Assembly (NCBI GenBank): GCA_938073895.1
Contig: CALJFB010000005.1
Span: forward strand, 1-64,000
Direction: 5' to 3'
DNA from: an uncultured Flavobacteriaceae bacterium
GTDB taxonomy: Bacteria > Bacteroidota > Bacteroidia > Flavobacteriales > Flavobacteriaceae
Length of the DNA: 64,000 nt
Below the pieces are notes generated by a model, which searched no databases, was not told the origin of the DNA, and saw only the letters and a program-made list of their open reading frames with translations. A program made the translations under genes and the position numbers. This document shows, piece by piece, positions 764-10,962 of this stretch (positions are counted from its first letter, which is position 1; every line of letters begins with the position of its first letter).

Positions 764-991
764 TTAATCAAATAAACTAGACATTATTGTTTTTAGACCT
801 TTAAAGATGAAATAGATAGCTAAACCACAAATTATAATACCTATAATAAATAGTGGTATAAAGAATGGTTTATCTTTATTAATTAATACTAAATGTAATA
901 ATATAGGACCACTAATTAGAAGTGCCAAAGCAATTCCCATTTGTTGTAAACCTTTTACTAATAGCTCTTTATTTGTTCTTTTAGTTTCCAT
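764..991 (-). CDS. Small two-TM membrane protein (DUF6095-like)
   Basis: 75 aa, two hydrophobic segments; 3' of and overlapping murQ on the same strand. Confidence 0.6.
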   Translation of the reverse strand: METKRTNKELLVKGLQQMGIALALLISGPILLHLVLINKDKPFFIPLFIIGIIICGLAIYFIFKGLKTIMSSLFD

Positions 992-1796
992 TGTAGTTTT
1001 CTATTGCGTTACGAACATTCTTGAATTTTAGTAATAGTGTTTTAGCTTCTGAATCTGAGATATTTAATTCGTTAACAATCATTTGTGTTCCGCGTTTAAT
1101 TAATTTAGAGTTAGATAATTGCATATCTACCATTTTATTTCCTTTTACTTTTCCTAATTGAATCATTGTAGAAGTACTAATCATGTTTAGTACTAATTTT
1201 TGAGCAGTTCCAGCTTTCATTCTTGAACTTCCTGTTAAAAATTCAGATTCTACTGTTACTTCTATTGGAAATTGTGCTGTTTTTGCTAGCGGACTTGATT
1301 CATTACAGGTTATACAACCTGTAATAATATTATTTTGATTACATTTTTCTAATGCTGATATTACATAAGGTGTTGTTCCTGATGCTGCAATTCCAATTAC
1401 TACATCTTTTTTAGATACATTATGGTTTTGTAAATCTATCCAACCTTGTGTTTTAGAGTCTTCTGCATTTTCTACTGCTTGTCTTATGGCTTTTTCTCCA
1501 CCTGCAATTATTCCAAAGACTAAATCTGATGAGACTCCAAAAGTTGGAGGACATTCTGATGCATCTAAAACACCAAGTCTTCCGCTTGTTCCTGCACCCA
1601 TATAGAATAATTTCCCGCCATTTTTTAGTCTGTTAACTATTTGCTTGGTTAATTTTTCTATTTGTGGTATTGCCTTTTTTACGGCTTGTGGCACTAAATG
1701 ATCTTCGTTATTTATATTAACTAAAAGCTCGTTTAACGTCATTTTTTCTAAATGATTGTATTTTGAGTCTTGTTCTGTTGTTTTTATAAAATCCAT
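981..1796 (-). CDS. murQ: N-acetylmuramic acid 6-phosphate etherase
   Basis: 271 aa; SIS-domain motifs GAGTSGRLGVLDASECPPTFG and GIAASGTTPYV, typical of MurQ. Confidence 0.95.
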   Translation of the reverse strand: MDFIKTTEQDSKYNHLEKMTLNELLVNINNEDHLVPQAVKKAIPQIEKLTKQIVNRLKNGGKLFYMGAGTSGRLGVLDASECPPTFGVSSDLVFGIIAGGEKAIRQAVENAEDSKTQGWIDLQNHNVSKKDVVIGIAASGTTPYVISALEKCNQNNIITGCITCNESSPLAKTAQFPIEVTVESEFLTGSSRMKAGTAQKLVLNMISTSTMIQLGKVKGNKMVDMQLSNSKLIKRGTQMIVNELNISDSEAKTLLLKFKNVRNAIENYNGN

Positions 1797-1819
1797 ATAT
1801 CAAAAATACGGATTTGTTT

Positions 1820-1971
1820 GCGTTAGTGGTAGTAGCGGCATCCTTTTTTGTGATAATAATGCTGTATTTTTTATAAATTGACTTTACATTGAATTAAACA
1901 TATACCAAACTAAATTTGTACTGCTTTGCAAAAAAGATATAGCGGATGACACGACCCGATAGGGAAACGCC
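1820..1971 (+). repeat. Structured inverted-repeat element / candidate non-coding RNA
   Basis: Left arm GCGTTAGTGGTAGTAGCGGCATCCTTTTTTG (1820-1850) and right arm CAAAAAAGATATAGCGGATGACACGACCCGATAGGGAAACGCC (1929-1971) pair in three helices (GCGTT/AACGC, CATCC/GGATG, TTTTTTG/CAAAAAA); small CCC-GATA-GGG hairpin. Confidence 0.55.
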
Positions 1972-2023
1972 ATTATATTAATATTTTAACAGAATAATAA
2001 ACGCTTTATTTTTTATTAGACTA

Positions 2024-2839
2024 TTACTCTACTGTGTAGTTTGTTGTGTAAGCTTGTGATAATCTAAAATAGCCTAAAGGAAAATTGGCTGTATTTGTAA
2101 TGTTTATACAATTTCCTCTTACGGTTGCTGGTTGGGTTTGAAATGGTCCACCATTGTCTGAATTTGATTGTTGTAAAAGCAAGTTCATGTATTCATAAAA
2201 TTGTTCTGATACGCCAAAGTGATTGATAGTTAGCTCATCTTCTGGTTTTAAATCTTCTTCTGTAAAGAACGCAAAAATTTGATTTCCGTTTGTAAATGCA
2301 TCATCGTAAACTTCTAACATTGGTATTGCTGCGATATCTGTGTCAAATTGGTAGAAATAATAATTTTCTTGGTCTGCTGGATCTGTATAATAGGCTTTAA
2401 TTTCTATTTCTTCTCCAGAAAATCCACCTTCGTTATCTTGCTCTATAAAATCTATTGGACTTACAGATTTAAGCGTTTCTATAGCTGTATAAGTTTCGTT
2501 ATTGTACGTAATATTTAACGTATAGGTTTCGTCTAATACTGGAGTAAATGTGGTTGTTTTATATATGCCAGAATTATCTGTATCTATAAAATTAAAGCTA
2601 TTATTATTACTATCTGTTATTGTAACTACAGCATTTAGTGCTAATGGAATTGATGTTCCAAAATAGGGCGCTGTTTTTGTTAAAATAATTTTTTGCTCGT
2701 TGCCTGGTGTACCATCATACCAATTAATAGATGCTTCTATTACTAGGCGTTCTTGTCCTGTTGGGACATCTATATCTACAACTTTTTCGCAATTTGTAAA
2801 TAAAAAAAGTAGTAGAAATGTATATATAAATGATTTCAT
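2024..2839 (-). CDS. DUF4249 family lipoprotein
   Basis: 271 aa, lipoprotein signal LLFLFTNCEK; directly downstream of a TonB-dependent receptor. Confidence 0.8.
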   Translation of the reverse strand: MKSFIYTFLLLFLFTNCEKVVDIDVPTGQERLVIEASINWYDGTPGNEQKIILTKTAPYFGTSIPLALNAVVTITDSNNNSFNFIDTDNSGIYKTTTFTPVLDETYTLNITYNNETYTAIETLKSVSPIDFIEQDNEGGFSGEEIEIKAYYTDPADQENYYFYQFDTDIAAIPMLEVYDDAFTNGNQIFAFFTEEDLKPEDELTINHFGVSEQFYEYMNLLLQQSNSDNGGPFQTQPATVRGNCINITNTANFPLGYFRLSQAYTTNYTVE

Positions 2840-8771: not shown

Positions 8772-8851
8772 ATTTAATATTTTTATTGATTAATCCAAGA
8801 TAACATTCGCGATTATCGCCAGAGGTTAACCCAAATTTGGCTGCAAATATA
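8772..8851 (-). promoter_or_regulatory. rplS promoter -7 box and ~69-nt leader with inverted repeats
   Basis: Minus-strand TATATTTG box (CAAATATA at 8844-8851), then CCAAATTTGG, GGTTAACC, GGCGATAATCGC and GATAA...TTATC before the ATG. Confidence 0.5.
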
Positions 8852-10815: not shown

Positions 10816-10860
10816 AGCTTTAAAAATATAACATTTTTGTCTAGTTTATACACTTTACTT

Positions 10861-10962
10861 GGGCAAATGGCAAGCCACCACGCTATTCGTTATAGTTTTG
10901 TAAAATCGTAGATTTAAATTTTACAAAAGCTGCCACTACTATCGTTTTTGCGAAATTACTTT
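10861..10962 (-). repeat. Hairpin element resembling the 1820-1971 element
   Basis: Perfect 11-bp stem TTTTGTAAAAT (10896-10906) / ATTTTACAAAA (10918-10928); minus-strand AGTAGTGGCAGCTTTTGT resembles AGTAGCGGCATCCTTTTTTGT at 1831-1851. Confidence 0.35.

Follow-up and report, generated by a model that had tools for sequence, protein, structure and literature searches.

What kind of element occupies the non-coding stretch of ~150 bp between murQ and a gene for a DUF4249 lipoprotein-like protein in an uncultured Flavobacteriaceae bacterium? The locus lies near the start of the window, the whole stretch of 64,000 nucleotides analyzed here, and the sequence-only reading had taken it for a multi-helix structured element, either an ncRNA or a repeat family, with a possible relationship to the Flavo-1 motif. 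We found that the element is an atypical, long-tip member of Flavo-1 (Rfam RF01705) with a real fold, so that the suspected relationship was correct. In a 601-base search, the whole RF01705 model (positions 1-76 of 76) matched at 1815-1960 (+) with 35.1 bits (E=9.8e-6). The family is thus a known one, but the match was not perfect: its score was below the gathering threshold of 42 bits because the tip loop of ~80 nt brings ~70 extra bases into the alignment. Our own covariance model (R1), which was built from 16 aligned copies and includes an outer helix, scored the window copy at 72.7 bits (E=3e-16, 1816-1975); since this copy was among the 16 training rows, the score is not independent evidence. 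The folding energy of the window copy was no better than that of shuffled sequences (z +0.27 on the + strand and -0.83 on the - strand). Therefore, energy alone is insufficient for a claim of structure, and homology and covariation are decisive. All features are listed in Table 1.

Table 1. Coordinates of the Flavo-1 copies in the window, of the genes beside the first copy and of the parts of its fold.
Feature	Position	Strand	Remarks
murQ	981..1796	-	downstream neighbour; starts 19 nt past the element, which is antisense to murQ
Flavo-1 element, long-tip form	1816..1975	+	strand as in the Rfam model; RF01705 and own covariance model R1
Outer helix, 5' arm GCGTT	1820..1824	+	pairs with 1966-1970; outside the 76-position Rfam model; 99.0% of cells paired in 104 copies
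Helix 2, 5' arm GTG	1826..1828	+	pairs with CAC 1950-1952; 100% of cells paired
Helix 3, 5' arm TA	1830..1831	+	pairs with TG 1947-1948; T.G pair marks murQ-site copies
Two-base helix, 5' arm GC	1835..1836	+	pairs with GC 1942-1943; 97% of cells paired
Apical helix, 5' arm ATC-C-TTTTTT	1840..1849	+	99.3% of cells paired
Tip loop, AT-rich	1848..1931	+	84 nt counted between model pairs; belongs to the 77-84 nt length class
Apical helix, 3' arm AAAAAAGAT	1930..1938	+	104-copy alignment
Two-base helix, 3' arm GC	1942..1943	+	104-copy alignment
Helix 2, 3' arm CAC	1950..1952	+	104-copy alignment
Lateral hairpin CCC-GATA-GGG	1955..1964	+	hairpin segments fold end to end in 104 copies
Outer helix, 3' arm AACGC	1966..1970	+	same 104-copy alignment
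DUF4249 lipoprotein-like gene	2024..2839	-	upstream neighbour; stop codon 48 nt from the element 3' end; name from the sequence-only reading
Second Flavo-1 element	10858..10955	-	between divergent sir2-like and trmH-like genes; R1 47 bits

The fold was analyzed in an alignment of 104 copies from the source genome and its relatives. In this alignment, which was fitted to the model and hence leans towards it, 99.0% of the 1975 cells paired, compared with 84.7% in shuffles, and slid controls fell to 32-54%. Changes on both sides were present in 15 of the 19 pairs (covariation score 0.419 versus 0.145). Double changes occurred in all five pairs of the outer helix, helix 2 showed GC/AU and GC/CG/UA exchanges, and the two-base helix, flanked by conserved purine-rich mismatch loops, appeared in all four combinations (GC/GT/AC/AT). 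The outer helix and the lateral hairpin, whose segments formed a mean of 4.3 pairs (1.7 when shuffled), are additions to the Rfam model. The segments named from sequence alone, GCGTT/AACGC, TTTTTTG/CAAAAAA (1844-1850 and 1929-1935) and CCC-GATA-GGG, are all present, and the proposal of a folded element with fixed internal interruptions holds in the 104 copies, as does that of a variable center, with tips differing in both length and sequence. CATCC and GGATG can pair as had been proposed, but they are not the conserved partners: in homologues ATC (1840-1842) pairs with GAT (1936-1938), and GTG with CAC.

The internal mismatches were preserved too. A G.A mismatch at one position of an internal loop was kept in 103 of the 104 copies, and a second site had A.G in 97 copies, G.A in 7 and no third combination. 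Homogenization of the two arms by template switching should erase such mismatches, and it can therefore be ruled out as the source of covariation. In addition, G.T pairs exceeded A.C pairs by 25 to 6 on the Rfam strand (p-value 0.0009, which is optimistic because the copies are mutually related) and by 11 to 1 in copies antisense to both neighbors. This excess favors folding of the Rfam strand, either as RNA or as single-stranded DNA.

Tip length varied among the copies. Tips of 6-22 nt were found in 73 copies, 32-64 nt in 15 and 77-84 nt in 16. In a model-independent pattern scan, the distance between the anchors was 96-103 nt in 22 of 39 copies and 104 and 106 nt in two more, and few copies were longer. 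The murQ-site tips of four Winogradskyella, one Polaribacter and one further relative (G018) measured 79-81 nt. Long tips of different genera were unrelated in sequence, those within the source genome showed only partial likeness, and no internal structure was observed in the long tips. Thus, there are two tip classes, a short one (6-22 nt) and one of fixed length and free sequence (77-84 nt), and this division is new; it is possible that the long class stems from one long ancestor with few indels. By eye, mid-sized tips at four loci (L044, L058, L162 and L219) contained palindromes resembling other Bacteroidota repeats, e.g., GAGCGGAGTCGAAG, and such tips look like nested insertions of other palindromic repeats.

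We also compared the murQ locus across relatives. The order tonB-DUF4249-murQ was kept in ~40 loci, mostly without the element, which was found just upstream of murQ in 15 of 95 loci (one of them, L145, a weak match with E=0.005). Orthologous copies at this site reached 43-53 bits with the Rfam model. Occupancy was clustered on the tree, yet ~8 changes are needed to explain it, and two Polaribacter carried the element in opposite orientation. The T.G pair was common to the window copy and the murQ-site copies of two Psychroserpens and four Winogradskyella, and among the 104 aligned copies it occurred only in the window copy, which supports descent of these copies from one ancestor. Moreover, ten aligned antisense copies at this site showed double changes in seven pairs, so that the fold has been constrained in place, and some copies had broken pairs (G018 and one Psychroserpens). 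Taken together, these comparisons support inheritance of the DUF4249-murQ fold across several genera, accompanied by compensatory changes. The same-genus relative (G001, 99% complete) had no murQ match at E<=1e-50, and the gene was present in the other 14 relatives searched.

Elsewhere the element is dispersed and mobile in appearance. The repeat half of the earlier proposal was borne out by ~30 Flavo-1 copies in the source genome, some of which reached 42-62 bits with the Rfam model. Copies at E<=1e-4 were present in 20 of 39 relatives, and the number per genome ranged from 0 to 32. The second window copy exceeded the Rfam threshold (43.9 bits at 10872-10956, -) and belonged to a subfamily of three that were 97-98% identical and located at unrelated sites; the version of this subfamily in the same-genus relative was only ~73% identical. 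Seven other genomes, that of the same-genus relative among them, kept the sir2-trmH gene order, and the element was absent from all seven, a comparison that rests on few genomes and would also be compatible with loss instead of gain. Eight other copies were apparently at orthologous positions in both congeners, one of them judged from a single flank. Finally, flanks were exchanged reciprocally between two copies of different subtypes (L014 and L020 in the source genome versus L066 and L162 in the same-genus relative), and copies therefore also mark rearrangement breakpoints. Pairs of copies 3-4 kb apart were considered as the two ends of one transposon and rejected, as they enclosed ordinary, partly conserved host genes. 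In one genome (G036), four loci (L034, L053, L068 and L069) contained the element within a longer compound repeat, with ~60 bases per flank, including a 3' hairpin, repeated. The window further contained an Rfam L19-Flavobacteria ribosomal protein leader at 8801-8828 (-; 41.5 bits).

Copies were not restricted to chromosomes. Peromfec virus RodF7_7 (L262), a complete Microviridae genome, contained the full fold (56.4 bits, E=1.7e-13), and a weaker match of 30.4 bits in Microvirus mar49 (L499) lay antisense, ~10 nt behind the Rep gene. In two inoviruses, Dulem viruses 63 and 60 (L500/L501), nothing but the outer parts matched (18.6 bits), and the insert was longer. All these Flavo-1 or Flavo-1-like folds of ssDNA phages were located in intergenic regions. 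The two microviruses differed in element orientation, so that a phage signal tied to the virion strand was rejected as unlikely. In six tailed-phage contigs (L419, L425, L427, L431, L436 and L442), Flavo-1 was antisense and directly behind a diverged large-terminase gene; four of these terminases were 26-43% identical to the first, and their name comes from a single PHROG match plus a weak Pfam match. The DUF4249 query had no match in viral contigs, and one plasmid query returned no copy.

Flavo-1 is therefore a repeat with a strongly conserved structure that is scattered over Bacteroidota chromosomes and is also carried by phages; it turns over between sites, and its usual place is immediately after a stop codon, in antisense orientation. 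In our opinion, the best explanation, with a probability of roughly 0.45, is a non-autonomous folded mobile DNA element, REP/MITE-like in kind, with secondary local retention. The Rfam strand would fold, probably while its DNA is single-stranded during replication or transfer; a putative enzyme would recognize the fold, including the conserved G.A-rich loops, and might place new copies beside gene ends. Some old copies, such as that at the DUF4249-murQ site, would have persisted for long without losing their fold, suggesting that it is also under constraint or of use in place. We counted in favor of this explanation the copy numbers in the source genome and its relatives, the near-identical trio, the empty sir2-trmH site, the exchanged flanks, the phage copies, the opposite murQ-site orientation in Polaribacter, the G.T/A.C bias and the covariation with preserved mismatches, as well as the data on transcription described below, i.e., no enrichment of promoters or terminators and published transcription that is indifferent to strand. 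Against it, RAYT is excluded as a general driver, no mobilizing enzyme was found and no target-site duplications were visible. Compensatory changes at the inherited murQ site and at least eight positions common to the congeners also indicate retention beyond what transposition alone predicts.

The main rival, which appeared somewhat unlikely, is a useful structure at the 3' ends of genes in hosts and phages, which would work in the mRNA or an antisense transcript and serve as a 3' stabilizer, a stop-proximal modulator or a factor-dependent terminator, with spread as a by-product. It is supported by the compensatory changes that arose while copies stayed at the murQ site, and by gene positions, which were taken from simple ORF calling. 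Copies between co-directional genes were antisense in 73 cases and sense in 34. Where the 3' end of the element faced the 3' end of an opposite-strand gene, the distance to the stop codon was 0-8 nt in 34 of 65 elements, compared with 5 of 47 where the 5' end of the element faced a gene 3' end (Fisher p=3e-6), and a few copies overlapped the stop codon by up to 4 bases. This antisense preference 0-8 nt behind stop codons is new for Flavo-1, and the rival explanation also agrees with the location after the large-terminase gene that several phages have in common. A second group of elements, read by eye, lay just past the apparent terminator hairpin of the gene itself. However, many copies were not stop-adjacent and 14 were located between divergent genes, the G.T/A.C count disfavored the mRNA strand of antisense copies, neither strand had a U-run after the structure, and consistent transcription was not seen in published RNA-seq (PMC9723704).

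An unlikely alternative is that Flavo-1 serves as a DNA binding site for a protein of the nucleoid, of replication or of repair, with binding dependent on the fold or on the two half-sites being a fixed distance apart. The conserved unpaired bases, the long tip class that is fixed in length and free in sequence, and the presence in several replicon types could all be explained in this way. However, no candidate protein emerged, and the range from 0 to 32 copies among relatives means that any such function is not essential.

A family of trans-acting small RNA genes, as which Flavo-1 is typed by Rfam (Gene; sRNA), appeared quite improbable. Covarying helices on one strand and the tolerance of G.T on the Rfam strand would suit it. 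However, promoter boxes were present upstream of 11 of the 104 copies versus 5-11 in controls, a T-run followed the 3' end in none of the 104, and neither promoter boxes nor terminal T-runs were enriched on either strand; on these grounds, an independent sRNA gene equipped with promoter and terminator was rejected. The tens of copies have unrelated tips, and in published RNA-seq Flavo-1 was indifferent to the strand of the transcript (PMC9723704). Together with the antisense-biased or strand-indifferent position of the copies, these data speak against the ncRNA half of the sequence-only reading, and the Rfam label is not supported by the present evidence. Chance complementarity in an AT-rich spacer, which the single-sequence folding energy alone would have allowed, is refuted by homology, copy number and covariation.

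A bolder form of the mobile-element explanation, which we consider rather doubtful, is that the sRNA classification is wrong and Flavo-1 represents a novel type of structured DNA element, mobile or domesticated, of Bacteroidota chromosomes and of tailed and ssDNA phages, which would settle opposite stop codons, be read as a folded single strand by a putative enzyme, and have a long form whose tip is constrained in length (77-84 nt) but not in sequence. Flavo-1 has been counted as one of the bacterial sRNA families of highest abundance (PMC9029176); if it is a folded DNA repeat, this label misleads sRNA surveys. The question is made testable with regard to strand, binding partner and deletion phenotype by the position at stop codons, the occurrence in phages, the discrete lengths of the tip and the extended fold.

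Several known systems resemble Flavo-1 in part. Integron attC sites likewise have a folded strand in which unpaired features are conserved and the terminal structure varies; however, the outer boxes of Flavo-1 are reversed (GTT...AAC) with respect to the generally known attC consensus, which rules out an attC-like site, and its copies are single and dispersed rather than in cassette arrays. ERIC-like repeats are comparable as short palindromic intergenic repeats. REP/BIME elements, which are thought to move as folded ssDNA, are also imperfect palindromes scattered outside genes, often close to the 3' end of a gene, and conserve some of their unpaired bases (PMC3733652, PMC6006769), but REPs measure 20-65 nt, whereas Flavo-1 is ~90-160 nt and lacks a strict GTAG tag at the hairpin foot. 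The obvious candidate for driving the spread, a RAYT/Y1 transposase (PF01797), was absent from the source genome (92.7% complete) and from three relatives with 13-19 Flavo-1 copies (G018, G025 and G006), and eight RAYT loci (L071-L078) contained no Flavo-1 match, so that RAYT is out as a general driver and a RAYT-driven REP was rejected. MITEs (reviewed in PMC10969869) are short palindromes of intergenic regions that are non-autonomous, occur in discrete sizes and may or may not be transcribed; Flavo-1 shares with them several near-identical copies and empty orthologous sites. The flanks of similar copies had no target-site duplication by eye, a non-exhaustive search found no parent transposon, and covariation in Flavo-1 was much stronger than expected of a decaying inverted repeat. 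The closest system is the Flavo-1 RNA motif itself (RF01705; Weinberg et al., 2010; PMC2864571), with which the window copy agrees in sequence, in loops and in the helices of the core along the full 76 positions, and from which it differs in its long tip, the extra outer helix and lateral hairpin, and its sub-threshold score. The family is thus known, and its long-tip form is new.
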